Below, piece by piece: positions 35,440 to 55,213 of a stretch of DNA of 64,000 nucleotides. The stretch is taken from the NCBI RefSeq assembly GCF_025151215.1, contig NZ_CP102286.1:868001-932000 (forward strand). The letters are read 5' to 3'. The first letter of the stretch is position 1. Each line of letters begins with the position of its first letter. Position numbers and translations under genes: made by a program. The DNA comes from Parabacteroides merdae ATCC 43184 (GTDB lineage: Bacteria; Bacteroidota; Bacteroidia; Bacteroidales; Tannerellaceae). Under the pieces are notes generated by a model. That model saw only the letters and a program-made list of their open reading frames with translations, did no database searches and was not told the DNA's origin.

Positions 35440-35488
35440 TAATAGTGGCGATGACGGGCTGGTCGCTTGTCCGGGTTGTAGTATCCGC

Positions 35489-37143: not shown

Positions 37144-38625
37144 TTACGGAGGTTGATACTAATTTCTCTAAACTCGCGATCAGCGTGTTGTATCCGGCAA
37201 CCGCTTCGCTCTTTTTAAGGCTGTAATCCAGTAACTGGCGTTCCAGTTGGATGATGTCCGTGAGGGAAGTCGTCCCTGCCGAAAATTCGCGGATCATCAA
37301 CTGGTAGGTCGACCGGGACAAGTCTTGCTGTTTGGCGTACAGGTCTATTTTGCGCGAGGCATTGGCCAGTTGTTGCTTTAAGGCGATATATTCGGCATGT
37401 AGCTGGTTGAGCGTGTCTTCGTACTTCAGTTCGCTTGCCTCACGGTAATGCCGGCTCTCCCGCTGCTGGGCGTTATATTTCGGCGGAAGATCGGGATGCT
37501 GATCTTAATCATCGGCATGACCATATCCATGCCGTTCATATTGCTCATCCCTGACATCCGGGCCATCTCTTCTGAATTCTTAGCCATGATGGAATATTGC
37601 AGTCCGATGCCGAACATGGGAAGGCTCATCTTCTTGTCCATCTCCGCCTTTGCCTTATACGCGTTTGCCTCCGCTTCGAGCATGGAGAGCATCGGGTTGG
37701 AGAGGATGATGCTGTCCAGGACCGCATTGTCTTCTATGGAAAACAGTTTTTGTGCCAGCGAATCGGAAGTTTGTACCGGCAGATCCTGATCCCGGTTCAG
37801 CAGGCTGTTGAACCGGGCTTCGGCTGCTTTCCTGTTCGATCGGAGAGCTTCGAGGTTGTTTTCCAGTTCGACCATTTCGATCTGGATGCGAAGTACGTCG
37901 GACATGCTGCCGGATGAACCGCTCCCCATCGTACCACCTGCCATCGAACCGCCCGTACCCGACATCGTTGTATTTCCGCCCGGTGTCGCAGAGGCCGTGG
38001 AAGGAGAGGTCCCCATGTTTTCCATACCGCCCATACTGTTGTTTGCCGGTGTCTGGGGAACGGGAGATGCGACCGGAGGCGCAACGGATGGTGTCGGCCT
38101 GCCCAGAACGGACGAAGCTGTATAACGGCTCAGCGCCAACAGCTCCAACTGCTTTAACAGTTCGAGGTTCGCTGCTGTGTTCTTATACTGCTCATTCAGA
38201 TTGTTCAATTGATACCACTGGCTTTTGACTTCGTAGAACAGGTTGTTGCGGGTTTCCCTGAATTGTTCGTAAGCCATGCGTGCCATCTCGGTCGCTTCGT
38301 TGCGGGCTGCTTTGCGGGTTCCGAACCAGGGGAACATCTGCATCAGGGTGAAGTCGGCTACCTGTTTGCCGGATAGCTGCTCCATCGGTTTGAAGAAGAA
38401 GCCCATTTCGAGTTCGGGATCGGAGAAAGCTCCCGCCTGCGGTATCTTTTCCAGGGATGCTTTGTAAAGGGCAAAGCTGGAATTTACCGACGGATTGTAC
38501 CGGGCGGCCGTTTCCAGGTAATGGGAAAGGCTGTCGGTCGTTTGTGCCTGTGATGGGAGATACCAAAGTGCCGATAGCAGGATGGCGGCCCAACGTAAGA
38601 CGGCTATATGCTTTTTTATTCTCAT
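37136..38625 (-). pseudogene. cusC: TolC-type outer membrane efflux channel, frameshifted
   Basis: The first part (38625 to 37426) encodes a signal peptide and 370 residues of a CusC/TolC-like channel. At 37478-37480 an A-run appears one base short: the frame then ends at 37426, while the next frame continues as KYNAQQRESRHYREASELK and runs through AGTTSLTDIIQLERQLLDYS to a stop at 37136. Restoring one base gives a normal length of about 496. A Gly/Met/Ser-rich insert (residues 195-240, with repeated SMGGM, GSMAGGTMG) is unusual for the family. It overlaps cusB start by a few bases, indicating one operon. Confidence 0.88.
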
Positions 38626-38675
38626 TCTACTAATATTTTATTTATATAAGAAAGTTTCAACTTTTTTCTCGGCGT

Positions 38676-38732
38676 GAAAATTTATTTTCATGCAATGGAA
38701 AATTTTTTTTCATCCGAAGAAAATTTATTTTC
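38676..38732. repeat. Left attachment-site repeats
   Basis: GAAAATTTATTTTC occurs at 38676-38689 and 38719-38732 and once more at the right end (51589-51602). Around the second copy the match to the right end extends to TG and TGAGGAA with two mismatches. The 38719 copy is therefore the likely left junction. Confidence 0.65.
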
Positions 38733-39012
38733 ATGCTGAGGAACTATTAGGGGAAAGGGCATTAGGGAGAGGATTGCGGGTAAGTAAATGGAAATGAGAG
38801 CGATTTGCGCCATATCTCGGTGATTTGCACAGAGGGGTTAAGTGCAGAAGATGTGGATTTATGCAGAAGTTCCGTTACCAAATCGTTAGTCCATTCCTTG
38901 AATGGTAACGAAGAGGTAAGATGAAGGTAATTGACAGAAGAGTATTCGGTAACTCACCTTTCTGTCGTTACGGTGCTTATGCTTTGTATTACAATGTTTT
39001 GCGTAGCTAAAA

Positions 39013-39055
39013 ACGCTTCTGTAACGGGTAATTTTGCCAATAAAAATAGAAGCGT
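39013..39055 (+). promoter_or_regulatory. Hairpin abutting the integrase start codon
   Basis: ACGCTTCT (39013-39020) and AGAAGCGT (39048-39055) form a perfect 8-bp inverted repeat enclosing the -7 box; the right arm ends at the base before ATG 39056. It could be an integrase or repressor binding site. Confidence 0.5.
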
Positions 39056-40285
39056 ATGCAAAGAGAAAAATTCAAGATTTTGCTCTACCTGAAAAAGAGC
39101 GGATTGGACAAGTTGGGGCAAGCTCCGATAATGGGGCGTATAACCTACGGGCGAACCATCGCCCAATTCAGTTGTAAGCTTTCATGTGCCCCCGATTTGT
39201 GGAACGCTCGTGAGAGCAGACTGAATGGCAAGAGTCGTGAGGCAGTGGTTACGAATGGCAAGTTGGAGCGTTTGCTCCTCTCTGTACAGTCGGCTTATAG
39301 AGTTCTTTATGAACGAGGTGCGGTCTTTACTGCAACAGACATCAAGGAGCTGTTCCAAGGAAGTATGCAAACTCAAATCACCTTTTTGGAGCGATACGAC
39401 CGAATGGTTAAAGATATGGAACAAAAGGTGGGCATCGAAATAAAGGCTACAACTATGAGTAGTTACCACACTGTTCGCAAGCACTTACAAGTCTTTATTG
39501 GTGAGAAGTACCATACGGCAGATATTCCTTTCGGACAGATGGAAGAAGATTTCTTGGAATGCTTGCAACACTACTCTGTCGGAAAGCTGGGACATTCGCA
39601 AGGTCATTATCGTAAGATGGCTTTGGCAGTGAAGAAACTCTGCCGTTTGGCATATCGTGAGGGCTTGACAGAGCGACAACTGTTTGCTCACATAGAGATA
39701 GAGCGAGGAGAGAACAAACAACCTCGTGCCTTGGATAGGGCTTCGTTGGATAAGTTGCTGGGATTGACCTTTGAGCCTTATGAAGTGGAGCTGGAAACCG
39801 CCCGTAATCTCTTTCTCTTCTCCTGCTATACGGGTGTTGCCTATTGCGATATGGTCGCCCTTAATAGGGAACATCTTTTTACGGACGATGAAGGGGCGTT
39901 GTGGCTGAAGTTTCGCAGGCAAAAGACGAATACCCTTTGCCGAGTGAAGCTCCTATCCGAAGCGGTTCGTATGATAGAGCGGTATCAGTCCGAGGAGCGC
40001 AACACTCTTTTTGCGCCTATTACTTATTCAGCTTATCTCGTTCAGCTCAAAGCCCTGCAACTTCGGGCTGGTATCTCTATTCCCCTTTCGGCACACGTCG
40101 GTCGCCACACCTTTGCGACCTTGATTACTTTGGAACGAGGTGTTCCCATCGAAACGGTCAGTCGAATGTTGGGACACAGCAACATCCAAACGACCGAGCG
40201 ATACGCCCACGTTACCCCGAAGAAACTCTTTGATGAGTTCGGGCGATTTCTCTCTTTCACTGAAAACCTAACCTTAACCTTGTAA
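39056..40285 (+). CDS. int: Tyrosine recombinase (integrase) of the mobile element
   Basis: A 409-residue Bacteroides-type tyrosine integrase with an N-terminal arm-binding domain, a SAM-like core-binding domain (100-220) and the catalytic domain. HVGRHTF supplies His347 and Arg350 and TTERYAHVT the nucleophile Tyr383. In the first Arg box the sequence is CYTGVAYCDMV; the usual Arg is absent, as is known for IntDOT-like enzymes. It lies at the left end pointing inward and ends 5 bp before the second integrase. Confidence 0.93.
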   Translation: MQREKFKILLYLKKSGLDKLGQAPIMGRITYGRTIAQFSCKLSCAPDLWNARESRLNGKSREAVVTNGKLERLLLSVQSAYRVLYERGAVFTATDIKELFQGSMQTQITFLERYDRMVKDMEQKVGIEIKATTMSSYHTVRKHLQVFIGEKYHTADIPFGQMEEDFLECLQHYSVGKLGHSQGHYRKMALAVKKLCRLAYREGLTERQLFAHIEIERGENKQPRALDRASLDKLLGLTFEPYEVELETARNLFLFSCYTGVAYCDMVALNREHLFTDDEGALWLKFRRQKTNTLCRVKLLSEAVRMIERYQSEERNTLFAPITYSAYLVQLKALQLRAGISIPLSAHVGRHTFATLITLERGVPIETVSRMLGHSNIQTTERYAHVTPKKLFDEFGRFLSFTENLTLTL

Positions 40286-40290
40286 GACCT

Positions 40291-41524
40291 ATGCGTAGTA
40301 CATTCAAAATCTTATTCTATATCAATAAGAACAAGACCAAAGCAGACGGAACAACAGCAATCCTTTGTCGTATCACCATTGACGGAGCGAACGTGGTGAT
40401 AACCACAGGCGAAAACGTTGCTCCTAACGATTGAAGTGTGAAGCGAGGGGAAACAACGGATAAGAAGATAAACCAACGCCTGCAAGCATCGAAAGGAAAC
40501 TTATATTCCAACCCTTCTGGAAACAACGGATAAGAAGATAAACCAACGCCTGCAAGCCTTTCGGGAGGAAATCGAACAAGGGTACAATACTTTGCTCTAC
40601 AAATATGGAGCGGTGAGTGCCGAACTTCTGAAGAACTACTTACAAGGCATCGGGAGAACTCCAATGACACTTCTTGCCCTTAGTGCGAAAGAACTCAAAG
40701 CCCAACAAGAAAGCAAGAGCGAGGGAACGTATAGCAACAATCGAATTTCCGATAAACAGCTTGATGCTTTTGTGCGAAGTCGTGGCGAAGAGGATATTCT
40801 TTTAACAGCTCTTACGATGGATTTCTTTGATGATTATCGGTTTCATTTGAAGAAAGAGGGCTATGCTCCTGCCACGATAAACAAGCATCTCTGTTGGCTG
40901 AGCCGATTGATGTATAGAGCCGTCAGTCAGGGGACAATACGCTTCAATCCGTTTGAAGAAGCGAAGTATGAAGCCGTGGAGCGCAAACCTCGGTTTCTGA
41001 GTAAAGGCGACGTAGCAAAACTCTTGGCATTTCCCTTGCAAGACGAAGGAGCGGAACTAAGCCGAAGAATGTTTCTTTTCTCCGTCTTTACGGGTTTGGC
41101 ATTTGCCGACTTACAGAGCCTGCGAGTTTCGCAAATCGAAAAGAACAACGAGGGGAAGCGGTATATCCGCAAGGCAAGACAGAAGACGGAGGTGGAGAGC
41201 CTAATACCTCTGCATCCGATAGCGGAGCAGATACTTTCGCTTTACACTAAGGAGGAGAGCAAGGGGGATTATAAGATTTTCCCCGATACGATGAGCAAGG
41301 GCAAACTACTAACCCATCTCAAAGCCGTTGGTTGGGCTTGTGGCATTCGCACTCCGCTGACTTGGCATGTCGGAAGACATAGCTTCGGTACGCTGACTTT
41401 GGAGGCAGGCATTCCGATAGAGAGCATCGCCAAGATGATGGGGCATTCGTCTATTGCCAGCACGCAAATCTACGCCCAAATCACTGACCAAAAGATTGCA
41501 AGAGATATGGAGAGGGTGATGTAA
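40291..41524 (+). pseudogene. Second tyrosine integrase, inactivated in its 5' part
   Basis: From ATG 40291 the frame reads MRSTFKILFYINKNKTKADG as in other element integrases, but meets TGA at 40432 where relatives have Trp (N-D-W). A 39-bp sequence is then repeated 70 bp apart (40449-40487, 40519-40557), shifting the frame by one. Removing 70 bp restores the link to the long frame that encodes the core and catalytic domains, with TGLAFADL, HVGRHSFGT and the Tyr in STQIYAQIT. The catalytic half is intact but lacks a normal start. Confidence 0.88.
40449..40557 (+). repeat. 39-bp direct repeat inside the broken integrase
   Basis: GGAAACAACGGATAAG... (39 bp) at 40449-40487 recurs at 40519-40557, separated by 31 bp not found in either copy. 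The 70-bp gain explains the frameshift. Confidence 0.9.
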
Positions 41525-41550
41525 CAAAGAGAGCAGATAACTTGAATATA

Positions 41551-41589
41551 GAAAAGAGCTTGTTCCAGTTAATGAAACAAGCTTTTCTT
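41551..41589 (+). terminator. Terminator after the integrase genes
   Basis: GAAAAGAGCTTGTT (41551-41564) pairs with AACAAGCTTTTC (41576-41587) with one bulged base, followed by TT. It separates the integrases from the convergent cargo operon. Confidence 0.7.
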
Positions 41590-41621
41590 ATAGCAAATAA
41601 TTTATAATGATTTCTTTTGCA

Positions 41622-42161
41622 TTATCCCTTAGATGTTTTGATATGCAATTTTATTTTCTTCATCGCCCAGTCGTAATGACTGGCAGCTGTCGAAACGCAG
41701 TAAGCTCCGAGTGGGGAAGTCCCTGTCCAAGCGAGTGTTCCTTTGGCAAAGAGTTCATCGTTGGAGAATTGCTCTATCAGTGCCATTACATCTTTGTGGC
41801 TCTCTCTTAACTTTGCTTTAGCTTCCTCCAATGGCGTATTTTGGTGCTTCTTCCAAAACCCAACGTTCATTGCCGGATAGGTTTTCCAATTATACGGTTC
41901 TGGTAAAAAAGGCTTGCGTTCGTCGTTACTGTTGGCTTTTACCCAATTTAGTAACAACTGATGCCATTCATACAGATGCACAAGCACATCTCGCAGGTTT
42001 TTGTCCCTGCTCCAATGTGTTTCTTTCCCGGCCGTTGCCATTTCCTCGGCAAAGGCTGCTTTCTGCTGTTCTTCGCTCATACTGTCGATGAGTTTCCACA
42101 TCTTGTCGAATTGTCCGTTGGCGGATGCTGTCAAATCCGCTTTTGTCGTTGCTCTTGCCAT
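41622..42161 (-). CDS. ClbS/DfsB-family four-helix-bundle protein
   Basis: A 179-residue protein of the ClbS/DfsB (DUF1706) family: ATTKADLTASANGQFDKMW at the start, the EWHQLLLNWV helix and a C-terminal CVSTAASHYDWAMKKIK with conserved aromatic and acidic residues. ClbS of colibactin producers hydrolyses the cyclopropane warhead of colibactin; DfsB is implicated in biofilm and toxin resistance elsewhere. Resistance to an electrophilic natural product is a reasonable guess. Last gene of a minus-strand operon of five; it starts 8 bp after VOC protein 1 ends. Confidence 0.88.
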   Translation of the reverse strand: MARATTKADLTASANGQFDKMWKLIDSMSEEQQKAAFAEEMATAGKETHWSRDKNLRDVLVHLYEWHQLLLNWVKANSNDERKPFLPEPYNWKTYPAMNVGFWKKHQNTPLEEAKAKLRESHKDVMALIEQFSNDELFAKGTLAWTGTSPLGAYCVSTAASHYDWAMKKIKLHIKTSKG

Positions 42162-42169
42162 AGTCTTTA

Positions 42170-42526
42170 TTACTCATTATATAGTTGATAAAACTCCAGC
42201 CAATGCCCGTCGGGGTCTTCAAAAGTCAGCAACTTGCCGTATGGCTCTTCTCTGATGTTGCCGATGATCTTCACATTTTTGCTTTTCAATTCATCTCTGG
42301 CAAGTTCGATATCCTCCACCTCAAACATAATCCTTGTTTTACTCGCAACGACTTCACCTTTGCTCTCCGGTCTTTTCAGGATGGCAAACGATGTCTCACC
42401 CAAAGCGAACTCTATCCAGTCGCCATCGACAACTTTTATATCAAATCCGATATTGCGATAGAATTCTTGAGACCTCTGCAAATCGCTGACATAAATCCAG
42501 CAGGCATATATTCTTTTAATCTTCAT
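42170..42526 (-). CDS. VOC-family (glyoxalase/bleomycin-resistance-like) protein 1
   Basis: A 118-residue protein with two beta-alpha-beta-beta-beta units: RIYACWIYVSDLQRSQEFYR opens the first and FEVEDIELARDELKSKNVKI the second; EDPDGHWLEFYQL is the closing strand with a metal-ligand-type Glu. Members may be dioxygenases, isomerases or drug-binding proteins; no choice is possible here. ATG 42526 is favoured over 42550 because the DUF3795 gene ends at 42529. Confidence 0.85.
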   Translation of the reverse strand: MKIKRIYACWIYVSDLQRSQEFYRNIGFDIKVVDGDWIEFALGETSFAILKRPESKGEVVASKTRIMFEVEDIELARDELKSKNVKIIGNIREEPYGKLLTFEDPDGHWLEFYQLYNE

Positions 42527-42528
42527 TC

Positions 42529-42945
42529 TTATCGTGTTCTTTTTCCGCACTCAGTGCAAACCTTGTCATGCAATGAGACGATGCCTCCGCATTCCATGCA
42601 GGTGTATCGAGCGGAGTGTATTTTCAGGAAATTACATATTCCTTCTTCCCTTACAATCTCACTATTTTCGACCAGACTTTCTTCGTAACGGCTGTTATAA
42701 CTTTTTTCGAGGTTTCTTATAAGTCTACAAGGGAAGTCACCACACTGATAGCAATAAGTAATCTCTTTCAGCTGCACGCAGTCTTTTATCCTGCATTTTC
42801 GGCAATGCACTGGTTTACTTTTGTTTTCTTGCATACATCCACTGCAAGGCTTCTGTATTTTCCTCGTATGACAATGCTTATAGCATACCGTACAGTTCAT
42901 GCCACAGGGAGCGAACATTTCTATGTCAATGCTGCCAATTCTCAT
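42529..42945 (-). CDS. DUF3795 cysteine-rich protein
   Basis: A 138-residue protein with 17 Cys residues or so. The first half has the DUF3795 pattern CGMNCTVCYKHC..CSGCMQENK and CRIKDC..CYQCGDFPC; the end has a zinc ribbon (CMECGGIVSLHDKVCTECGK). Metal or zinc binding is very likely; function unknown. It overlaps the GNAT gene start by 20 bp. Confidence 0.8.
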   Translation of the reverse strand: MRIGSIDIEMFAPCGMNCTVCYKHCHTRKIQKPCSGCMQENKSKPVHCRKCRIKDCVQLKEITYCYQCGDFPCRLIRNLEKSYNSRYEESLVENSEIVREEGICNFLKIHSARYTCMECGGIVSLHDKVCTECGKRTR

Positions 42946-43498
42946 ATCTGTCTTTTCTTTTTCTCCATTCTTCTAGTGTGAGTTTGGTGAAATGTTCTGT
43001 GCGAACGTCATTCATCAATGGGACGGGCTTGTTGTATTCCGTATGGCTGTAAGTGAATCCGCATTTCTCTTGCACTCGTTTTGATTTCTCGTTGCCATCA
43101 AAATATCCGCACCAAACGGTAGTCATCTGCAAATCCTCAAAGGCATATCGAATCAATTCGCTGACGGCTTCGGGAATCAGGCCTTGCCCCCAATATGGCT
43201 CGCTAATCCAATAGCCAATCTCACATTCGCTGCCCGCCATCTTTGCGGAGCGAATCTCACTCCTTGCTGTCATGATTCCTACGCTACCGATTGTTTCGCC
43301 TGTCTCCTTCAGAACAACAGCGTATGTCTCCGGAGCAGATAACACGCCCTTGATGATTTCGCGGCTGTTCCCAATACTCGTGTGCGGCGGCCAACCTGCG
43401 ATGGGACCGATATTCGGATTGCAGGCATATTTGTAGAGTGCTTCGGCATCGCTTTCCTGCCACGGTCTTAAAATCAAGCGTTTGGTCTGTAATTCCAT
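42926..43498 (-). CDS. GNAT N-acetyltransferase, RimJ/RimL type
   Basis: A 190-residue acetyltransferase starting TKRLILRPWQESDAEALYKY, with the acetyl-CoA segment YWGQGLIPEAVSELIRYAF. Such enzymes acetylate ribosomal proteins, toxins or small molecules; the acceptor is not known. Within the detoxification operon it may act on an incoming compound. The 3' end overlaps the DUF3795 gene by 20 bp. Confidence 0.88.
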   Translation of the reverse strand: MELQTKRLILRPWQESDAEALYKYACNPNIGPIAGWPPHTSIGNSREIIKGVLSAPETYAVVLKETGETIGSVGIMTARSEIRSAKMAGSECEIGYWISEPYWGQGLIPEAVSELIRYAFEDLQMTTVWCGYFDGNEKSKRVQEKCGFTYSHTEYNKPVPLMNDVRTEHFTKLTLEEWRKRKDRYENWQH

Positions 43499-43560
43499 AT
43501 TTCTTATTGATAAAATTCTTTTCTTTTATCGTCTGCTCTTTGGTCATTGCACCAAACAAA

Positions 43561-43980
43561 TTACATAACGAGGCTTCCCTCGCTGTCAATCTCCCAAAAA
43601 GGATTGTAGGCTACCTCGAACACATAGCCGTCCAAATCTTTGAAATAGCCGCTGTAACCGCCCCAAAACACTTTCTGTGCAGGCTTCACAACGGTTGCTC
43701 CGAGCCGTTCGGCTTCCTGCATCACGGTATCGACTTCTTCCTCCGATGTGGCATTATAGCTGATTGTCATACCCGAAAAGGATGCCTGCTGATAATTTAG
43801 CGTTGTGTCTTTTTCCAATTCTTGCAGTGGATATAATCCTAAAACTATCCCACCCAAAGGAAACAATGCGTAGGCTTCTTGACTTTGTTGCGATTTCTTC
43901 CAGCCTAAGCCCTCGTAGAAAGCCAAGGCCTTTTGGAAGTCTTTTACTCCCAATGTGATTAAAGTGAATTTCTGTCTCAT
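43561..43980 (-). CDS. VOC-family (glyoxalase/bleomycin-resistance-like) protein 2
   Basis: A 139-residue VOC protein (MRQKFTLITLGVKDFQKALA; later EEVDTVMQEAERLGATVVKP and WGGYSGYFKDLDGYVFEVAY). It differs from VOC protein 1 in sequence. It is the first gene of the minus-strand cargo operon, 62 bp ahead of the GNAT gene. Substrate unknown. Confidence 0.85.
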   Translation of the reverse strand: MRQKFTLITLGVKDFQKALAFYEGLGWKKSQQSQEAYALFPLGGIVLGLYPLQELEKDTTLNYQQASFSGMTISYNATSEEEVDTVMQEAERLGATVVKPAQKVFWGGYSGYFKDLDGYVFEVAYNPFWEIDSEGSLVM

Positions 43981-44077
43981 AAGTTGTGCATTATTGAAAT
44001 TGAATCCGCCACAAAGTTACTTATTCATAGCAAGAAAGAAGAATGAAACGGCCAGAAAATCATCTACTTCAGAAACT

Positions 44078-44365
44078 CTATCCCCGATAATTCTCTTGCA
44101 GTAATCTGTTGATATCTGAGAGTCGATAGAGTATTTTCCCTGCGATTTGGGTGTAGGGAATAATGCCTCTGTCCCGATAGTCCTGCAAAGTGCGAGGACT
44201 AACGAAAAGGTGTTCGCAGACCTCCCGCCCCGTAAGGTATATTTCTCCCCCGAAGAGCGGACAGTGCGTTTGGGCTATCTCCCGAATACGTTTACTTACT
44301 TCCTTAATGCCCGAAATGAGTTCTTTCATCTCGGGTGTTTCTTTGTTAATCGTTTCGTATTCCAT
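44078..44365 (-). CDS. Helix-turn-helix protein, excisionase-like (1)
   Basis: A 95-residue protein with a MerR/Xis-type winged helix: YLTGREVCEHLFVSPRTLQDYRDRGIIPYTQIAGKILYRLSDI. Such small pairs are typical of Bacteroides mobile elements, where they control excision and transfer. It follows the second HTH gene by 8 bp on the same strand. Confidence 0.85.
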   Translation of the reverse strand: MEYETINKETPEMKELISGIKEVSKRIREIAQTHCPLFGGEIYLTGREVCEHLFVSPRTLQDYRDRGIIPYTQIAGKILYRLSDINRLLQENYRG

Positions 44366-44373
44366 AGTCGTGG

Positions 44374-44646
44374 TTATTTGCGGTTGGACTTGGCGAGGAG
44401 TGCTTCCACATCCTCACGTTTGTAATAGCACTTGTGTCCGATTTGGATAAAGGGCAGCACGGACGTATCCCGATAGTGCTGGAGCGTTCGCTTGCTGATG
44501 TTCAGTATTCGGCACACGTCCCCGTTGTGTAACAGGTCGGGGAGTTCGGGCTTCATTCCGAAGTGTTCTCGCATACAAAGAGCCAGCTCTTCAATGCTCT
44601 TTTTCAGTTCCTCCCACGCGGAGGTGTCGATGGCGGTAAATCTCAT
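44374..44646 (-). CDS. Helix-turn-helix protein, excisionase-like (2)
   Basis: A 90-residue paralogue of the adjacent gene: LLHNGDVCRILNISKRTLQHYRDTSVLPFIQIGHKCYYKREDVEALL. ATG 44646 is chosen; the frame is open far upstream, but that part has no similarity to a protein. Probably co-transcribed with gene (1), and together they may act as directionality factors for the integrase. Confidence 0.85.
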   Translation of the reverse strand: MRFTAIDTSAWEELKKSIEELALCMREHFGMKPELPDLLHNGDVCRILNISKRTLQHYRDTSVLPFIQIGHKCYYKREDVEALLAKSNRK

Positions 44647-45403
44647 ATCAATATCGTTTTTAATTGTCGTTTTTCTCTTTTCGGTGCAAATGTATGCGAG
44701 CGAAATCCTTGTTCCAAGAACCGATGAAATCAAGGGAAACAGCAGGAAATCGCAGGCAAATGTACAAGCACAAACCGCCTGTTTCACCCCCTTTTCTCTA
44801 AGTGTGTACTTGTGGCTTCGATATGATGTGAAATGTCCACACGACACAACGGGAAAAAGATACCGAGCGACCGTAAGATTGCTCGGTATCTTTTCTTTGA
44901 TTACTCGGCATCTTTTGGGGGTTCTCTCGCCAATGATAATTCTCGCTTGCATATCCCTCGAAGAAAAAGGGTGCAGGTATTAGCAATCCGATGAAGTCGT
45001 TTACAGAGCCTTTCTCCTCTCTGTTCTTTGCTTTTTGAGCCTTTTCGTTCTGTTTTCTCCCATTTTTACTACTCATTTTCGGAGCATTTCTCTGTACCTC
45101 GAAGCAACAGACACACCAGCCTTGGGACTCTGTGTTCGCCTCTGTAACTTGGTTTCAGCATCCGTTTTCGGATGAAAGTTCAAAACCAAGCAAACAGAAG
45201 AAGTACGAACAATGAAAAGAAACAAGCAAACGAGAAATGCCATAGATACTTTCTTCTTTCACTGTGAAAGGGTATATACGGTGAAAGGAAAAAAGCAGGG
45301 AATGGCTTTTTGTTTTGCGTGCGACAAGGTGCGTCCTCCGTGATCCGACAGCCTTTCCCTTTCACCGTTTATAACTCAAATCCCATTTATTCAATAACCA
45401 CTT
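44647..45403. other. Gene-poor spacer between the HTH pair and the primase-like gene
   Basis: No gene that I can support. A 92-codon minus-strand frame (44798-45076) lacks recognisable features. The spacer includes the divergent promoters of the HTH pair and the primase gene and an inverted repeat, 45273-45288 with 45358-45373. Confidence 0.55.
45273..45373. repeat. Inverted repeat upstream of the primase-like gene
   Basis: TATATACGGTGAAAGG (45273-45288) and CCTTTCACCGTTTATA (45358-45373) match over 15 of 16 bases as inverted repeats, 69 bp apart. The right arm is 30 bp from the primase start. Confidence 0.55.
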
Positions 45404-46348
45404 ATGAAACCAAGATATTACGATTTACAACATATCAAAGAGATACCGATAGGCGACTACCTGCACGCCTGTGGTATTGAACCTGCCAAACGGTACAACG
45501 GCTATGCTCTTTATCACGCACCTTACCGAGAAGACCACAATGCCAGCCTGAAAGTGGACTTTCGGCAAAACCTGTGGCATGATTACGGCACAAACCAAGG
45601 TGGAAGCATCATCGACCTTGTGATGCGAATGCAAGGATGCAGTGCCTATAAAGCAATGGCGCATCTTGCCGAAAGAAAAGCGACACCTTTCACTTCCTTT
45701 TCCTTTCATCGTGAAGCTCACATAGGGCAGAGAAGGGATGAACAGCAACCCAATAATACAAGGCGTATCCTCTCCATCAGCGAAACGTTGCCCCTGCATC
45801 TGCAAAGCTATCTCCGAGAGGTACGCGGGATAGACCTTGCCGTGGCAAGTCCTTATCTCCGTCATATTCGTTACGAAGTGGGAGGACGAGAGTACTCTGC
45901 CATCGGCTTCCCAAATCGCGCAGGAGGGTATGAGCTTCGGGGCGACAAGACATTCAAGGGAACGATTGCCCCAAAGGATATATCCGTGATTGCAGGAAGA
46001 GCGAGCAACGCTCCTCTCTGTATCTTCGAGGGCTTTGTGGACTTCCTTTCCCTTCTCACGATGAAAGGGGAAGAAACCATTTCGCCTTCCATCGTTCTGA
46101 ACTCCGTGAGCAATATCCATAGAGCCGTTGCCTATCTCCACGAGAACGGCATCGACTCCGTTCGGGCATTCCTCGACAACGATGAAGCAGGACGAAAAGC
46201 CCTCCAATCTCTTCGCTCAGCAGGCATCAAGGTAGAAGATATGAGCCGACACTATGCCCGATACAAAGACCTCAACGAGTACCACGTTGCCCAAAGAACA
46301 GGGCAAAAACAGGTGATACCATCTCGTAAACGAGGACTTGGACGATAA
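45404..46348 (+). CDS. Primase-like protein with degenerate zinc finger and Toprim domain
   Basis: A 314-residue protein found with mobilizable Bacteroides elements. The N-terminal 80 residues resemble a CHC2 primase finger (YHAPYREDHNASLKV, then NQGGSIIDLVMRMQG) but have lost most Cys ligands. The Toprim domain shows CIFEGFVDFLSLL (catalytic Glu) and AFLDNDEAGRKAL (DxD). Presumably it primes the complementary strand after transfer. It lies 331 bp ahead of the relaxase gene on the same strand. Confidence 0.85.
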   Translation: MKPRYYDLQHIKEIPIGDYLHACGIEPAKRYNGYALYHAPYREDHNASLKVDFRQNLWHDYGTNQGGSIIDLVMRMQGCSAYKAMAHLAERKATPFTSFSFHREAHIGQRRDEQQPNNTRRILSISETLPLHLQSYLREVRGIDLAVASPYLRHIRYEVGGREYSAIGFPNRAGGYELRGDKTFKGTIAPKDISVIAGRASNAPLCIFEGFVDFLSLLTMKGEETISPSIVLNSVSNIHRAVAYLHENGIDSVRAFLDNDEAGRKALQSLRSAGIKVEDMSRHYARYKDLNEYHVAQRTGQKQVIPSRKRGLGR

Positions 46349-46424
46349 GGCAAAAGAGAGCAAATAACATTATTCCATCATCAGGTATCCAAAGATTCAG
46401 GAAATAAAATGTATGCGAATAAAC

Positions 46425-46514
46425 GGCTTTGTTTCGATAGCTACGGCAGTTCCTCAGAACCGCAAGTTTGCAGAGCCAACTTAGAAACAAAGCCTCCGTG
46501 CATTCAGAGAATGC
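46425..46514 (+). other. Candidate origin of transfer (oriT)
   Basis: Upstream of the relaxase gene, GGCTTTGTTTC (46425-46435) and GAAACAAAGCC (46484-46494) form a perfect 11-bp inverted repeat. Inside are smaller ones (GTTC/GAAC at 46449-46460; GCAA/TTGC at 46462-46471), and just after lies GCATTC-AGA-GAATGC (46500-46514). Nested repeats next to a MobV gene are typical of oriT. The nick site is not identified. The rest of 46349-46679 holds no gene. Confidence 0.5.
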
Positions 46515-46679
46515 AAGCTCCTCAAGGGCGAACTTCGGACGAGACGAAATGGTCATTTCAAGAAATGCCATAGCTCATTAGGGCATTTTCTTCACGCTGC
46601 ACTCCGTTACCGCTAAAAATACCCTCCTGAGCCAAGGGACTTCGCCCCTTTGGATACCCCTTAAAACAAACTTCAAACA

Positions 46680-47936
46680 ATGGGCTACGCCGTACTACAT
46701 ATAGACAAGGCGAGGAGCAACGACTCGGGAAATACCGCTCATATAGCGCGGACATATACCCCGAGTAACGTCGATCCTTCTCGCACACGCCTGAACAGGG
46801 AATTGGTGCAATTCCCTGCAAATGTGACCAACCGTAGCGAAGCGATAGAACATCGTATCGCCACGGCAGGTATCTACCGAAAGGTTGCAAAGAACCAAGT
46901 CAAAGCCTTGCGCTTTATCCTGTCGAGTTCTCCTGAGGATATGGCTCGTATAGAGCAGGAAGGACTCCTGTACGAGTGGTGTGATGAATCGATGGATTGG
47001 CTTCGCTCCACTTTTGGAGCAGACAATGTGGTCGCTGCCACGCTACATGCAGACGAGGATACTCCCCATATTCACGCCACGGTCGTTCCGATTGTCACGG
47101 GCGAAAGAAGGAAAGCCAAAGAGGAAGCCGAGAACGGAAAACGGAAGTACAAGACGAAGAAGAACAAGGTACGGCTTTGTGCCGATGATGTGCTTACGCC
47201 CAAGAAACTGGAGCAGTATCAGACGGACTATGCCAAGCGAGTGCAACGGTTCGGATTGGAACGGGGCGTGCACGGCTCGGAAGCCAAGCACCGGACCACG
47301 ATGGAGTATTACAAGGAAATTCTCAAATCCACGAAAGAGAAGGAAACTCAAAAGGCGGAACTCACAGCCAAGATAAAGGAGCTGGAGAAGCAGGCAGGCA
47401 AGCTACGTATGAAAGGAACGCTATATTCTATCTTTGGCAACTCCGAACTTGACAAAGCAGAGAAGCGTATTGCAGACTTGGAGCAGGAAGCCGAACGGCA
47501 ACGGTATCTTTCTCAAAAGGAGAAGAATGAAATCCGAAAGGAAGTCGTTCTCTTGCAGGACACAATCAAGGGAAGGGACAGAGTCATTGCCGAATTGAAA
47601 GAAACCGTGCAGGTTTATGAGGAAGAGCGGAATTGGATAAAACGCTTCTTCAGTGGCTTCTACCAACTCTTGAATATCCGTCTGATGCTCCGAAAGATGG
47701 GTTTCTCTGATGACAGAATAGCGGAGATGTATCGCACGGAGACGCCCCTGCGAGGCACGGCTAAAGCCTATTCGGGATTATACAAGAGAGAGTTTACGGA
47801 AGAGGACAGCGAAATCCGTATCATCAAGGACGAGAAGAAACGACCTCTTTTGACCATCAACGGGCTTCCCATTACCGATTGGTGCGAACAGAAATGGAAA
47901 CAGCTAATCAATCGCAACCGCTCGCAACGACTGTAA
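46680..47936 (+). CDS. mob: MobV-family relaxase
   Basis: A 418-residue mobilization relaxase (Mob_Pre). Motif I NTAHIARTYTP holds His21, which aligns with the His22 nucleophile of MobM of pMV158. Motif III HADEDTPHIHATVVP gives the metal-binding His123, His130 and His132. The C-terminal half is a long coiled coil (residues 205-310). It would nick oriT and lead single-stranded transfer with help from a resident conjugative element. A basic start and good coding bias support ATG 46680. Confidence 0.92.
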   Translation: MGYAVLHIDKARSNDSGNTAHIARTYTPSNVDPSRTRLNRELVQFPANVTNRSEAIEHRIATAGIYRKVAKNQVKALRFILSSSPEDMARIEQEGLLYEWCDESMDWLRSTFGADNVVAATLHADEDTPHIHATVVPIVTGERRKAKEEAENGKRKYKTKKNKVRLCADDVLTPKKLEQYQTDYAKRVQRFGLERGVHGSEAKHRTTMEYYKEILKSTKEKETQKAELTAKIKELEKQAGKLRMKGTLYSIFGNSELDKAEKRIADLEQEAERQRYLSQKEKNEIRKEVVLLQDTIKGRDRVIAELKETVQVYEEERNWIKRFFSGFYQLLNIRLMLRKMGFSDDRIAEMYRTETPLRGTAKAYSGLYKREFTEEDSEIRIIKDEKKRPLLTINGLPITDWCEQKWKQLINRNRSQRL

Positions 47937-48062
47937 TTGCTTTTTTCTTTCACCGACAAGAAGAAAAACAAGAAAAGACGCTCACATACCCTCATAAATG
48001 CTTACCTTTACAAGCAAATAAATGTAAACTACGCATTTTAAGCAATTCTGTACTTATTGATT

Positions 48063-48977
48063 ATGGCAATGCGAGTAAGTCTTAAGGAATTAATCCAAAG
48101 TTCAATTGTTTTGCAGTATCATCTACCTCATGATATTGCAGATAAGCACATTTCATGCTCATGTATTTCAACAGAAAAAGATTATTGTTTACATCAAAAT
48201 GGGACCAATATTGATATAGCAAACATAATCTATAATGGAATAGTTGAGTATGCTTATAGTGATAATGAAATAGATTTAACTCAGCTTGACAAGCTCCAAA
48301 TAAGAGCATTGTTAAGCAAACTAAAATTTGACCCAAGTGCTTCAGAAAGTATTCAGCTGGGGTATGGTTTTCAAGGCGAAGTTATGCTTCATCTTCTCCT
48401 TAGTCATTTTTTTCATGCAGAAAAGGCACTTGCTAGAGGATATTTATACTCTGCTTTAGAAAATGCTGAGACTAAAGGTTATGATTCATATTTGATGGTA
48501 GAAGACAATCAAACAATATTTCTACTTTTTGGAGAAGCAAAATTTTACTTGGATGGATATAAAAAGTCGTTAGACTCTATATTTGATAATATTAACAAAA
48601 CTCTTTCTGATTCTTACTTCAATCGGAATTTTATTGCGATGGAAAACCACTATGAACATATTGAGCCGAAGAGTAGAATTCGACAAATTATTGATCAATG
48701 GCGAGCTGACCCATTGATAAATATGGCAAAAGAAGCCAGTCGACACAATATGCACCTTGTATATCCGATGCTAGTTATCTTTGATGATAAAATGACTGTA
48801 TACGATGATCTCATAATGGGTATAATATCATATATTCAAACCAAATATAGTGCTGTGCAACCTACACTAACAATCCCATATACAATCTTTTTCTTGTTTT
48901 TTCATGTGGATAATAGTCGTATTATTAAGACACAAGTTTTGCAATGGATAAATCAAAAGCAGCAGCTGATGCCGTAA
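48063..48977 (+). CDS. hamA: Hachiman defence protein HamA (DUF1837 nuclease)
   Basis: A 304-residue DUF1837 protein. The core reads GYGFQGEVMLHLLLSHFF, then ARGYLYSALENAETKGYDSY, then LLFGEAKFYLDGYKKSLDSI. Asp141 (GYD) and Glu158-x-Lys160 (GEAK) form a PD-(D/E)xK-type nuclease site. In Hachiman systems HamA is the DNA-cutting effector held and released by HamB. ATG 48063 is preferred over a TTG six bases earlier. The 3' end overlaps hamB by 34 bp. DNA here is much more AT-rich than the host flanks, pointing to transfer. Confidence 0.93.
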   Translation: MAMRVSLKELIQSSIVLQYHLPHDIADKHISCSCISTEKDYCLHQNGTNIDIANIIYNGIVEYAYSDNEIDLTQLDKLQIRALLSKLKFDPSASESIQLGYGFQGEVMLHLLLSHFFHAEKALARGYLYSALENAETKGYDSYLMVEDNQTIFLLFGEAKFYLDGYKKSLDSIFDNINKTLSDSYFNRNFIAMENHYEHIEPKSRIRQIIDQWRADPLINMAKEASRHNMHLVYPMLVIFDDKMTVYDDLIMGIISYIQTKYSAVQPTLTIPYTIFFLFFHVDNSRIIKTQVLQWINQKQQLMP

Positions 48978-51256
48978 AGCTTATTAACCAAGCTAAGGAA
49001 GATTCAAATTTGCAGCCTTTAATGATTAAGGCTGTTTGTTCTTTTTTCGACATTATGAAAGGAAAAGAGTTATCTCAGGCGGATAGACTCTTCTTGCATT
49101 ATCTTGCTAACCAAGCAGGTCTCCCCCAGTATTATTATCCGATGCTGAATGTTGGAGAATACGTTGATGAAGAGGTTACTTTGCAGACCTTTTCAAATTA
49201 TATCAATGAAAGCAGCTTGATAGTTGGCGAAGGTGTCATGTTGCATCGCTACCAGAAAGAACTCTTGGAAAGATTCAAGAGAGGGCAGAGAAATCGTATT
49301 TTTCTGAGTGCTTCAACATCTTTCGGAAAAACATTCTTGATATACGAGATTGTAAGGAAGATGGAATATACTAATGTTGCATTTATTTTCCCCACCCTTT
49401 CTCTCCTTTCTGAGAACTTGTTTAAGATTCATTTATCGCCTGAATATAAGTGGGTAAAGGATAACTATGTGATTCATACACTCAGTGATAAAGAGGAAAT
49501 AAGCGGACGGAATCTTTTTATTTTTACTCCAGAACGATTCTTGTCTTTTTTGGATAAGAACAAAGAAATTCAATTGGATTTTGTATTTGTAGATGAGATA
49601 TATAAGCTTGATAATGGTTTTATCATAGACGAGGTGTCTCAAGAGAATGAGCGAGATGTGGCGTACAGGATAGCTTTGCACGAATTGCTAAAGACCCCGC
49701 ATGTTGATTCTTTACTTACAGGTCCATATATAGCACTTCCGACCAAAGATAAAAAAGATGCACAATTCTCATTTAAAACTTTCCTTGACTATTATGATTT
49801 TGCTATTGTCAACTACAATCACTACGAAATAGTGAATAAGGTGGAGGTCTTTGCAGAAACAGCATCAACCATTGAGATTGATAACACGTTTCACTTGACA
49901 TTTACAAATAAGACTAAGAGTGCTCGCATTGTCCAACTTGTTACACAACTTTTGAATCGAGGAGAAAATGCTATAGTCTATTGCAGTACAAAAGCTTCGA
50001 CGGAAAAATATGCTAAAATTTTAATTAGTAAAAATAATTACATCAAAGATGTTGATTCCGAAAAAGTAATCAGGCTTACAAACCATATAGATAGTTTATT
50101 TGCGAATGGGAGGGGAGCACAATGGATTGTTTCAAAAGCATTAAAAAAAGGAATTGGTATACACCACGGTTCAGTTCCAAAGTATATACAGCAGGAAATT
50201 ATTTCACTGTTTAATCAGAATATTTTAAAGATCCTAATATGTACTACTACTATCACAGAGGGGGTAAATACCACAGCTAAAAACGTGATAGTGCTTTCTG
50301 GAAAAAAAGGAACGAAAGACTTAAAAAAGTTTGATGCACAGAACATAGAGGGGCGAGCTGGTAGATTTATGCAGCATTATCAAGGGCGGGTCTTTATTCT
50401 AGATAAAAATTTTGCGGATCGAATGAACGAAGAGGACGAATTGTTGCAACATAAATTTTTTGACAAGAATATTGATAAAAAAGATGTGGATATTGTTCTA
50501 TCAGATTCCAATTATCTCACAATCGAGCAAGAAAATAGGAAAAAGCAGTTAGAGGCTATCAAAGAAAGTGGAATAATGCCTAAAGCATGTTTTGAGGAGT
50601 TTAGAACAATATCATATGATGACAAGATTTATTTGTACAATACAATTGCTCGCTTTTCAACAACAGATCATGAAAAGATAACAGAGTTAATAAGACGTTA
50701 CGTTGGCCAAAGGAAGTCTTATCTTCCAGGTCTTGAACTTATATGTCAAACTATCCGTCCAATTATCAAAAATGACAATTTACGTTTTTATGTAGAGAAC
50801 GGAAATGATCAGTCTGGTAACTGTTATCTTGTTGGTATGATTTCTGCTTTTATTTCTAAAGGATTTTCAGGCTCGGTAAATTATCATATTAGAAAAGAAG
50901 GGGATGTGGATAAGGGAGTTAGAAAGGCTGCTAATTTTGTTTTTAATATGCTCCGTTACCAAGTAGTAAAATATTTCGGTTTATTTAATTTGCTCTACAA
51001 ACAATTTGAATCAACTCGCAAGGGTGTAAATGTTGATGAAGTTAATGGCATTGAAGCGTTATTACTCAGGCTTGAATATAGTGCAGATACAAGATTAGGA
51101 AGACAGGTTAGTGACATTGGTGCATCTTTTAATGTGGTGAAATACTATGATGTAAAAGAGAATAATCCAGATGATCGCGAGCTTATTGGAAAATATTATA
51201 ACCAGCTGGATGATTATGAGAAATACAATGTCGCAAGAATAGATCAGATATTATAA
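48944..51256 (+). CDS. hamB: Hachiman defence protein HamB (superfamily 2 helicase)
   Basis: A 770-residue helicase. Motif I is STSFGKT (Lys129), motif II is VDEIYKLD (Asp217, Glu218; DEIY rather than DEAH), motif VI is IEGRAGRF (Arg471, Arg474). An N-terminal helical region precedes the RecA-like pair, and 250 residues of C-terminal helical domain follow. HamB surveys DNA for damage or abnormal ends and unleashes HamA, stopping phage growth. The 34-bp overlap with hamA couples their translation. No third gene belongs to the system here. Confidence 0.93.
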   Translation: MDKSKAAADAVKLINQAKEDSNLQPLMIKAVCSFFDIMKGKELSQADRLFLHYLANQAGLPQYYYPMLNVGEYVDEEVTLQTFSNYINESSLIVGEGVMLHRYQKELLERFKRGQRNRIFLSASTSFGKTFLIYEIVRKMEYTNVAFIFPTLSLLSENLFKIHLSPEYKWVKDNYVIHTLSDKEEISGRNLFIFTPERFLSFLDKNKEIQLDFVFVDEIYKLDNGFIIDEVSQENERDVAYRIALHELLKTPHVDSLLTGPYIALPTKDKKDAQFSFKTFLDYYDFAIVNYNHYEIVNKVEVFAETASTIEIDNTFHLTFTNKTKSARIVQLVTQLLNRGENAIVYCSTKASTEKYAKILISKNNYIKDVDSEKVIRLTNHIDSLFANGRGAQWIVSKALKKGIGIHHGSVPKYIQQEIISLFNQNILKILICTTTITEGVNTTAKNVIVLSGKKGTKDLKKFDAQNIEGRAGRFMQHYQGRVFILDKNFADRMNEEDELLQHKFFDKNIDKKDVDIVLSDSNYLTIEQENRKKQLEAIKESGIMPKACFEEFRTISYDDKIYLYNTIARFSTTDHEKITELIRRYVGQRKSYLPGLELICQTIRPIIKNDNLRFYVENGNDQSGNCYLVGMISAFISKGFSGSVNYHIRKEGDVDKGVRKAANFVFNMLRYQVVKYFGLFNLLYKQFESTRKGVNVDEVNGIEALLLRLEYSADTRLGRQVSDIGASFNVVKYYDVKENNPDDRELIGKYYNQLDDYEKYNVARIDQIL

Positions 51257-51588
51257 CATTTGATAGGAGGTTTGAAGATATATGATGGATATAATCTCAA
51301 CTTTAGAAAGCTCAATAAGAGTCGGAATGAATTATTAGTTCAGATCATATATAAGGAAGGATACTTTATACCAAAACATTGAGGTCTCAATATAATGAAT
51401 CAAAAGAGTTCTCTCTTTTTGGCGAAATTTTGTATATTTGCGACCGAAATGGTGAGCGTTCTTTGGCTATTCAAAACAATGTACCTCAAAGCACTCCGCT
51501 CATTTCTAAATCGTTACCTGTCCGTATCACCCCAAACGGTAACCTCTTACTTCTCAGCCAGATAGCCCGAAACTTAAAAAATGACTCG
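51257..51588. other. Right-end spacer of the mobile element
   Basis: No gene that I support. It holds subterminal motifs AAATCGTTA (51508-51516) and GGTAAC (51538-51543) like those at the left end, and a TATATTTG box at 51433-51440 without a suitable gene behind it. Confidence 0.6.
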
Positions 51589-51602
51589 GAAAATTTATTT
51601 TC
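51589..51602. repeat. Right attachment-site repeat, overlapping the cusA stop codon
   Basis: GAAAATTTATTTTC, identical to the left copies. The cusA stop (51595-51597, minus strand) lies inside, so integration recreated the end of the gene. Confidence 0.65.
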
Positions 51603-54600
51603 CTGGTGAGGAATTTTCTGCTGCGTTGCGGGCCTTTTCCTCTTTCTTCAGCAGCCCTTCCCGCCACCAGCATTGGAATACGGGGACGACAAACATGGTC
51701 ATCGACTGGATCAGCATGCCGCCGAAAGTCGGGATTGCCATCGGAACCATAATATCGGCTCCCTTTCCGGTCGAGGTGAGGACGGGGAGCAGGGCGATCA
51801 GGGTGGTCGCGGTTGTCATGGCTGCGGGACGTACACGTTTGAGTCCTGCTGTCACGACGGCTTCACGTATGGCGTGCCTGGTCTGCGGGTCCTTTTCCAG
51901 GAAGACGTGATGGATGTAAGTTCCCATCAGCACACCGTCGTCTGTCGCCACTCCGAAAAGGGCGATGAAGCCGACCCATACGGCTACGCTCAGGTTAATG
52001 GTATGCATCTGGAACAGGTCCCGCATATTGACTCCCGCCAGCGAAAAGTTCATGAACCAGTCCTGACCGTACAGCCAGAGCAGGATAAAGCCGCCGGCAA
52101 AAGCCACGAATACACCGGAGAAATGAATCAACGAGGCCGTAAGGGTCTTGAACTGGAAATACAGAACCAGGAGGACGATCAGCAGGGCCAGGGGAACGAC
52201 GATCATCAGCCGGGCGGTGGCACGTTCCTGTTGTTCGTAGTTTCCGGCAAACTTGTAGGAAACGCCTTTTGTTAGTTTCAACTCTCCGTTTTGTATCTTT
52301 CCTTCGATCACTTTTGTCGCTTCTTTTACAACATCCACTTCCGCTTTTCCCTGTTTCTTGTCGAAGATCACGTAGCCGACCAGGAAGGTGTTCTCACTCT
52401 GGATCATCTGGGCGCCTCGGGCATATTCGATATCGGCGAGTTCTTTCAATGGGATCTGGGCGCCGGTGGCTGTCGGAACCAGGAGCATGGACAATGCTTC
52501 CGGATTATCACGCAGTTCGCGGGCATAGCGGAGGCGCACGGGGAAACGCTCGCAGCCTTCGATCGTCTTCGTCAGGATCATGCCGCCGACGGCTGCACTT
52601 AGTATCTCCTGTAAATCTTCGACGTTCACTCCGTACCGGGCCATGTTATCCCGGTTCAGCTTAATCTCCAGATAAGGTGCTCCGACCGCCCGGTCATAGA
52701 ATACGGACGAAGGGATCACGGAAGGAACGTCTTTGAGCGCCTGTTCGATCGCCTTTCCGCTCTGCTCGATCGTTTCCAGATCCGGCCCGTATATCTTCAA
52801 TCCCATCGGAGCGCGCATACCGGTCGAGAGCATGACAAGGCGTGCCTCTATCGGTTGCAGTTTCGGGGCGGATGTGAGTCCGGGCAGGTGGGTGACGTTG
52901 ACAATTTGCTGCCAGATATCGTCGGTGTTCTTGATTTCGGGACGCCATTGCCGGAAATAGTCTCCTTTGCGGTCCGGTATCAGGCTATCTGCCGGAATCA
53001 GGCGGAAGCCGTCTGCCGGATTGTAAGTGCCTCCGTTTCTCAGGAGATATTCTCCTTTCCGGTTCACTTTGAAACGTTCCCGCTTTCCGTCTTCGTTCAG
53101 GATATATTCGGGACGATAGTTGATCGTATTCTCGAACATCTGGGCGGGAGCCGGATCGAGTGCCGAGTTTACCCGTCCCCATTTGCCGATTGCCGTTTCC
53201 ACTTCGGGGATGGCTGCCAGGCGTTTGTCCAGCGCTTCGATATAATTCAGGTTTTGCTCGATTCCTGTATGGGGCATGCTGGTCGGCATCAACAGGAATG
53301 AACCTTCGTTGAGGCTGGGCATGAACTCTTGCCCGATCCGTTTCCAGATCAGGATGCCGCATAGGATAGTCGCGATCGGTAGCAGCATGAACTTCCACCG
53401 GTTATTCAGACACCAGCGAAGGATACGTTCGTAGTAGATCACCAGTAACCAGAGCAGTGCAAGAATGATGGCGATACATCCTGTTACGAAAAGAAGATTG
53501 ACGATAATGCCTTTCTGGGGGCCCATCGGCAACCATTCTTCTGCCAAGAAGTAGGTGGCGACGACAAGTGCGATACCGATATTGATATAGTTACTTATTC
53601 CGGGTTTCTTCCAACGGTGAGCAAGCAGGTTGTTAAGTCCGACGGCTGTAAGTCCGAGTGCCGGAATATTACTGTACAGGACAGACAAGAGGACACCTGC
53701 TGCAATCAGTATGTAGTTGAGCACTTTCCGTATCCGCTTTGAGTCGATCCGTACCGAAAACAATATATAGGATAAGGTCGGCAGCAAGATCAATCCCAAT
53801 ACGAAAGCAGAGGCCAGCGCATAGGTTTTCGTGTAGGCGAGGGGAGAGAACATTTTTCCTTCTTGTGCCTCCATTGCAAAAACGGGCAGGAAACTGACGA
53901 TAGTCGTGATCATCGCCGTGGCAATGGTCCCCGACACTTCACTGACCGCCTTATAAATAAGGTTTACCATCGCTTTCCCTTTGCGGATGCCTCTGTTTTC
54001 CGGCATCTCCATATACCGGATGATGCTTTCGACAAACACGACGCCGACGTCCACCATCACGCCGATAGGGAGCATGCTGGCTATCACGACGGATGCCCGG
54101 AGGTTGAGGACCAGCACGATGATAACGATGATACAGATCAGTATTTCGTGGGATAAAGATGTTTCGAGCGTGCCGATTGTCTCTTTGATCAAGCCTGTCC
54201 GGTCGTAAAAAGGTACGACGGTGATTTTGGAGACAGTCCCGTCGGGCAAGGTTTTCTGGGGAAGTCCGGGCGCCATCTCCTTGATTTTGTCTTTTATATT
54301 ATTAATGACTTCCAAAGGGTTGGAACCATATCGGGCGATCACGACACCGCCGACTGCTTCGACACCTTCTTTATCCAGCCCGCCGCGCCGCGTACCTGGA
54401 CCGATATTTACAAACGCTACATCGGAGATGCGTACCGGCACACCGTCACGACGGCTTTTTCCAGGTCGGATACATCTTTGATGTAGCCCAGGCCGCGGAT
54501 CAGATATTCGACCTTATTGATCTCCATTGTCTCGGCGCCGATATCGAGATCGCTTTTCTTGATCGCCCCCATAATATCCATAACGGAAACATTAAAGGTG

Positions 54601-55213
54601 CGCATGGCATCCGGATTCAGCTCGATCTGGTACTCTTTTACAAAACCTCCGGCTGATGCCACTTCCGACATTCCTTCGGCGGTCGAAAGGCTGTATTTGA
54701 CATAGTAGTCCTGTATGGTACGCAGCTCTTCCGCATTCCATCCTCCTGTCGGTTTTCCGGTTGCCGGATCGCGTCCTTCCAACGTGTACCAGTAGATTTG
54801 TCCTAAAGCGGTTGCATCCGGACCCAACACTGGTTGTACGCCTTCGGGCAGCGTGCCGGGGGGAAGGGAGTTGAGCTTTTCGAGAATCCGCGAACGGCTC
54901 CAGTAGAATTCTATATTATCATCAAAAATAATATAGATGAAGGACATGCCGAACATGGAAGAGCTACGGATCGATTTGACTCCGGGAATCCCCAATAGGG
55001 AAGTGGTTAGCGGATAGGTGATCTGATCCTGGATATCTTTGGGCGAACGTCCCATCCATTCGGTCGCTACGATCTGTTGATTATCGCCGATGTCGGGAAT
55101 CGCGTCTACCGGAATCGGATTGCGGGGAATGATCCCTCCGTGCCAGTTAAATGGAGAAGTCGAGATGCCCCATACGACTACCAGCACTAAGATCAAAAAA
55201 AAACGATAAACAT
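51595..55213 (-). pseudogene. cusA: Copper/silver RND efflux pump, multiply damaged
   Basis: A heavy-metal RND proton antiporter. The three Met residues that bind Cu/Ag in CusA have counterparts: LVMLSTGM, AAVGGMILTKTIEG and GAQMIQSEN. Three lesions are seen. First, at 54441-54449 the text jumps frame between KAVVTV and GVPVRISDV, as if 10 bp were lost between GTGACGGTG repeats. Second, near 54060 SMLPIG joins directly to VMVDVGVVF, missing about 28 residues of two membrane helices. Third, the 5' end has no proper start; a 9-base A-run at 55195-55203 separates ATG 55213 from the reading frame. A working pump is very unlikely. Confidence 0.88.

Follow-up and report, generated by a model that had tools for sequence, protein, structure and literature searches.

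A predicted mobilizable element carrying Hachiman genes lies between units of a 22-bp host repeat array in Parabacteroides merdae, and its relatives often adjoin DNA of similar period

Mobilizable transposons of the MTnPi1 type, known from Prevotella intermedia as MTnPi1, MTnPi2 and MTnPi3, carry two tandem, unlike tyrosine integrases, a primase-family protein, a relaxase and varied cargo. In the portion of the description available, the members share a similar short att sequence of 11 bp, excision of the MTnPi1 type has been shown by PCR, and arrays are not mentioned as targets (PMC4755523). The closest described array, going by an excerpt of its description, is the BrickBuilt MITE of Porphyromonas gingivalis, which consists of dispersed intergenic short tandem repeats with a leader and a tail and for which insertion of a full-length element is "yet to be detected" according to its authors; its unit is 23 nt long, whereas the arrays considered here have a unit of 22 bp (PMC4596501). 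The closest described behaviour, likewise judged from part of the source, is that of IS elements targeting REP sequences, which like the element below are mobile DNA using dispersed intergenic palindromic repeats, but which act through transposases, whereas here a tyrosine-recombinase mobilizable element meets repeats of differing sequence (PMC1525189). Our literature search returned no report of such array targeting, which with its narrow search terms is weak evidence of absence.

We analysed a window of 64,000 nucleotides from the genome of Parabacteroides merdae ATCC 43184 (G000). The segment from 38740 to 51587 on the + strand, 12,848 bp long as delimited by comparison with relative loci, is to judge from its genes an integrative mobilizable element, the mobility being a prediction from gene content. 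Domain matches identify intA (39056..40285, +), coding for a tyrosine recombinase of 409 aa with arm-binding and SAM-like domains, and intB (40592..41524, +), coding for a second tyrosine recombinase with 310 aa open. The N-terminal part of intB (about 40291-40530) aligns with relatives in a different frame, so that the gene is interrupted here; an intB ORF of at least 385 aa was found in 35 of 45 scored sequences (window included), some of the others being cut by contig ends. A first cargo block on the - strand (41622..43980) encodes DUF1706/DinB-like, VOC, small cysteine-rich, GNAT and VOC proteins, the cysteine-rich one having no match in NCBIfam. Beyond it lie genes for two HTH_17 proteins (44078..44952, -; domain matches) with a putative excisionase-like role, a primase-like protein with DnaG zinc ribbon and Toprim domains (45404..46348, +) and a MobV relaxase (46680..47936, +). 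The genes of the anti-phage defence system Hachiman, hamA (48057..48977, +; Pfam HamA, PADLOC E = 5.1e-132) and hamB, coding for the helicase (48944..51256, +; PADLOC 1188 bits), are adjacent and overlapping, as is usual for Hachiman, and sit between MobV and the right end of the element. This interval measures about 3.5 kb with Hachiman here and about 90 bp at most in six directly compared relatives; nothing is unusual about the Hachiman pair but its location on a mobilizable element.

Both ends could be located in eight relatives, all of which contained matches to intA and intB (the latter in two pieces in L060). The primase was matched in six of them (not in L060 and L066), MobV in seven (not in L066) and either HTH protein in four. 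The cargo of the relatives varies, and includes ABC transporter genes in L039, VapE-like genes in L054 and L062 and an IS110-type transposase in L060. As far as the available text of PMC4755523 allows a comparison, the architecture matches that of the MTnPi1-type transposons; the likeness is one of architecture and not of compared sequences, and the Hachiman cargo and the MobV assignment come from the present element. An IntA of more than 52% identity occurred in no other genome of the genus (38 genomes, own included), and the element therefore probably originated outside the genus. A second, shorter IntA relative (48% identity, residues 1-352 matched) is encoded in the source genome itself, at G000:C1:1068085-1069140. 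A near-match search of plasmids gave one match, covering 2% of the query, and a search of viral_contigs gave three loci.

The left end was placed with the help of 45 relative loci, 39 of which gave a match. Twenty-four of these matches start at 38739-38742, four at 38735-38738, nine further left (38697-38733), where the flanks resemble each other, and two only at 38840. At the right end, 6 of 15 matched loci finish at 51580-51586 and the other 9 stop earlier, at 51482-51536. The element starts with GGAACTAT at most aligned junctions. Its right end reads AAAAAAT followed by 5-6 variable bases, with GG next in eight of nine right ends; the pattern gave 11 matches, from which L072 and L075 were excluded as sharing sequence beyond it. 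Common to both junctions is only GGAA (38740-38743 and 51588-51591). The spacer at the left junction, ATGCTGA (38733..38739), agrees in six of seven bases with the ATGCTAA of the empty site described below, and the coupling bases at the right junction, GACTC (51583..51587), are unlike the empty site and are taken to be element-borne. No tRNA that could serve as target was found in the window by ARAGORN, and no known RNA family reached the gathering threshold in 38500-51800.

What surrounds the element is a host repeat. The sequence-only reading had noted a 14-bp sequence, GAAAATTTATTTTC, on either side of the integrase-bearing segment, and exact copies do lie at 38719-38732 and 51589-51602, with the stop codon of cusA (51595-51597, minus strand) falling within the right one; these copies are not, however, the boundary of the element. 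The 14-mer is the unit of a 22-bp tandem palindromic array of the host. The window contains the 14-mer exactly once more, at 38676, and with one mismatch at 38698; with up to two mismatches there are 8 matches against 1.72 expected. Across the 4.38 Mb of the source genome the 14-mer occurs exactly 9 times, and 30 times if one mismatch is allowed (6 times for the reversed control). Several copies form pairs with a spacing of 22 bp, and the 14-mer is thus a dispersed host repeat unit. Units 1-3 (38676-38689, 38698-38711 and 38719-38732; together 38676..38732), spaced by steps of 21-22 bp with one step of 21, represent host DNA left of the element, and the same units occur in G012, another genome of the genus. 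Unit 4, with the cusA stop codon (51588..51602), belongs to the host DNA on the right, and a partial unit, GGAATTTTC, follows within the cusA 3' end (51610..51618) and is also present in G012. This comparison places the element between units 3 and 4. Elsewhere in the window, at 14093-14192, there is a G+C-rich repeat with a period of about 23 around CATCCGGGTGT.

The genes on the two sides belong to a metal-pump operon, cus. In the window cusA (51595..55196, -) consists of two overlapping ORFs (948 + 259 aa), and cusC (37136..38625, -; two ORFs of 399 + 61 aa) and cusB (35401..37143, -) lie beyond the left 14-bp copy in the orientation of cusA, as had been proposed from the sequence. In a comparison of 38 genomes of the genus, the source genome counted in, the cusA end closest to that of the window (97%) came from G012, and there the locus (L010) crosses the site as GTGAAAATTTATTTTCATGCAATGGAAAATTTATTTTCATCCGAAGAAAATTTAGTTTCATGCTAAGGAAACTTTATTTTCCCGGTGAGGAATTTTC and then runs into cusA, with four units and no element. 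The three genes are contiguous in G012 (L174; cusA 1277 aa, cusC 495 aa, cusB 553 aa), with the array alone between cusA and cusC. The proposal that a mobile element parts cusA from cusC and cusB is thereby borne out, the separation being absent from the element-free relative. Five further loci (L011-L015) matched both flanks and gave no match to the element. The last CusA codons (ENSSPGK-stop) are encoded by array DNA both in G000 and in element-free G012, and CusA ends differently in L011-L014, with tails unrelated to this peptide. The frames of cusA and cusC are interrupted in the source genome and open in G012, so the operon may already be non-functional, or sequence errors may be present; the three interrupted frames near one another (cusA, cusC and intB) would fit decay as well as sequence error. 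Near these genes, a serine-recombinase-like protein (55460-56059, recognised by eye from the translation) adjoins the cusA start, and two copies of the N-terminal part of an AraC-like regulator lie about 1.8 kb apart, at 32666-33343 and 34450-35439, with identical 154-aa minus-strand ORFs across the duplicated part.

These data bear on the idea, also part of the sequence-only reading, that the cusA 3' end is a gene-end attachment site and the 14-bp sequence a duplicated att core. Two exact copies flanking the segment, one of them with the stop codon, speak for such a site. The 14-mer is, however, a unit of a dispersed array, four units are already there at the empty site, and the element begins eight bases past the left copy. 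Moreover, the ends of close relatives lie elsewhere, beside other sequences: homologous islands share the start of the element and adjoin other repeats or none, so the 14-mer does not mark island ends either. We rejected the 14-bp sequence as an att core on these grounds, and regard a protein-gene attachment site as scarcely credible; the target is the array.

Arrays of this kind are widespread in genomes with and without the element. Counts of a two-unit pattern (GAA-N8-TTC) against a reversed control were 19 against 3 in G000, 69 against 3 in G012, 62 against 2 in G378, 58 against 5 in B. pyogenes (G096 and G431, counted once, being identical in count and in the places listed), 188 against 1 and 161 against 1 in Porphyromonas uenonis, 25 against 15 in P. 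canoris, 13 against 4 in C. felis and 3 against 1 in G434. No excess of the two-unit pattern was seen in G433 (0 against 11), G435 (2 against 3), G436 (0 against 2) and G437 (1 against 8), so that arrays in these genomes, if any, are of other sequence. A three-unit pattern occurred in 32 of 393 genomes of the order, some with repeats of another kind, and its reversed control in 17 of 393; the highest counts were 101, 35, 30, 27 and 24 for the pattern and at most 6 for the control. All four genomes with a near-full left end of the element were among the 32 (Fisher p = 4e-5, kinship ignored). Of twenty array stretches in G012, 10 lie between co-directional ORFs, 3 between convergent and 2 between divergent ones, and 5 inside an ORF of at least 80 aa, two of these five being single units; the arrays, 15 of the 20 being located between ORFs, share with REP/BIME sequences the trait of a dispersed intergenic palindromic repeat. 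By eye, spacers 1 and 3 are reverse complements of each other in arrays L138 and L143 of G012 and, with one mismatch, in L004 of G000, and the whole array could in these cases fold as a larger hairpin.

A second empty site was found in P. uenonis. The element at L062 in strain 60-3 is absent at L160 in strain DSM 23387, where the array is uninterrupted and the alignment extends through base 698 of the 700-bp L062 flank; G378 has a longer array at the same site (L161). For the P. uenonis elements at L081 and L061, matching loci without the element exist, with alignments ending 51-297 bases before the junction, and these are not clean empty sites. By eye, a shared leader precedes the first unit at L061, L062 and L081, three unlinked arrays, which suggests that leader and array have spread together in P. 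uenonis. One could suppose that the element or its recombinases build the arrays by repeated insertion and excision, given that arrays adjoin many insertions and that the spacers differ between units. Yet arrays are present at the empty sites, they occupy many loci in G012, whose best IntA match is 50% only, and their sequence tracks the host and not the element, and we consider such an origin very improbable.

We also quantified the periodicity of the host DNA at the left junctions of relatives. For this analysis we took 51 sequences (45 loci, L087, L098, L101-L103 and the window) and excluded eight (L071, L073, L076, L077, L079, L080, L082 and L083) in which no left end aligned from the first three bases. 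L081-L083 had matched at 29-30% only, probably through the second integrase, and L085, L086 and L097 are duplicates of L048, L081 and L061, respectively. In 66-bp flanks, 24 of the 43 junctions adjoined host DNA that reached an identity of 0.5 at lags 21-23, a level attained by 1.47% of 70,954 windows of AT-matched background, and five control lag triplets gave 0, 2, 2, 0 and 2 of the 43 junctions. The discovery set of 38 junctions, which includes the window, contributed 19, and the five sites found later all exceeded the threshold (L087 0.84, L098 0.58, L101 0.73, L102 1.00 and L103 0.80). The threshold of 0.5 was chosen after the data had been seen, six thresholds having been computed, and the p-values presuppose independent observations, which related genomes and overlapping windows are not; L101 and L051 have similar arrays, and 3 of the 43 sites come from P. 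uenonis.

An earlier measure, based on 88-bp flanks of the 38 junctions, gave a mean identity of 0.450 at lag 22, 0.356 at lag 21 and 0.319 at lag 23, and of 0.24-0.31 at the remaining lags within 12-40; the background at lag 22 was 0.256 over 33,155 windows, and 12 of the 38 junctions reached 0.5 at lag 22 alone. A scan of periods 12-60 across all of this DNA, including the junction arrays themselves, returned 15 stretches with a period of 22, 12 with 44, 6 with 21 and at most 3 with any other. The remaining 19 of the 43 junctions were below 0.5, which indicates that an array is not required, and among the nine elements with a located right end the left flank reached 0.5 in two only (the window and L062).

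The family-wide excess could be due to a recombinase that merely prefers A+T-rich or bent intergenic DNA and does not recognise the 22-bp spacing. The flanks are A+T-rich, and 19 insertions lie below the array threshold, which speaks for such a preference. Against this, the excess persists over an A+T-matched background and is seen specifically at lags 21-23, and a G at -22 is over-represented in sites labelled non-array as well (10 of 13; 29 of the 43 junctions overall). We judge this explanation unlikely, if less so than the two above.

The reading that we prefer, and hold to be quite probable, is that a Hachiman-bearing element of the MTnPi1 type entered the spacer between units 3 and 4 of a pre-existing 22-bp palindromic array, located between cusA and cusC, through its tyrosine recombinase or recombinases, acting at a degenerate core with G marks. 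Of the 43 junctions, 23 have GG at -22 or -23, against 0-6 for other offset pairs tested; 15 of the 24 array sites have it and 9, the window included, do not, unit 3 of the window having a G at -21. Exchange across non-identical coupling bases is characteristic of CTnDOT- and Tn916-type elements. The present element shares with these the unlike coupling bases at its two ends, the left resembling the empty site and the right not, and differs in that its junctions have GGAA only in common and its targets are repeat arrays; in P. uenonis it is ambiguous which element end carries the bases of the target. By analogy, IntA, perhaps together with IntB, would recombine a circular form, its ends abutting as AAAAAAT-N5/6-GGAACT, with a chromosomal core in which the crossover is preceded at about 22 bp by G or GG and followed by GG, and strands would be exchanged across 5-7 non-identical bases. 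A 22-bp array would offer such a core at every unit, and, being mostly intergenic and recurring at many loci, it would make a relatively harmless landing pad.

The junction arrays themselves differ in sequence, being GGAACTTTTTAGTTCCAGCGGA in P. uenonis, GGAAAAATATTTTCGTAGGTAA in P. canoris and GGAGCTTTTTAGCAAAACATCA in Capnocytophaga felis. Even elements whose IntA is 89-92% identical to that of the window (L041, L044, L048, L050, L051 and L101-L103) lie beside arrays of unlike sequence, the units of which share little except the G marks and a middle rich in A+T. The simplest reading would be a degenerate core whose marks are spaced by about 22 bp, the marks not being universal. For relatives with an IntA identity of about 45-51% (L089-L093, L099, L100 and L156-L158) and for L155 (58%), the best repeat upstream was not a 22-bp repeat; a 22-bp repeat was found about at the expected left end of L154 (59%), and upstream of L088 (69%) at a position not fixed relative to the element end. 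Array targeting may be limited to the close clade. In two of the 50% relatives, L156 and L157, the DNA upstream of intA resembles by eye the 3' end of another integrase gene, which hints at a different target in their clade.

We put forward more tentatively, as a possibility that we would not yet favour, that the recombinases of one clade recognise the geometry of the repeat and not its sequence, and that arrays and elements co-evolve. The geometry in question would be that of G marks separated by about two helical turns and flanking a palindromic, A+T-rich middle, and the unlike 22-bp arrays of many Bacteroidota would then all be usable as landing pads.

The findings link the paired-integrase mobilizable transposons with the dispersed short tandem repeats of the Bacteroidota, so far described separately, and give these repeats a testable role as insertion sites. 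They also carry a warning for annotation, in that identical short repeats around an island may be host repeats and not att sites. Insertion into arrays suggests a route into many genera that needs no conserved target sequence and does little damage to genes, and it predicts where the defence-carrying elements of this integrase clade are located. If it is the geometry that is read, array-rich genomes would collect such elements together with their defence cargo.
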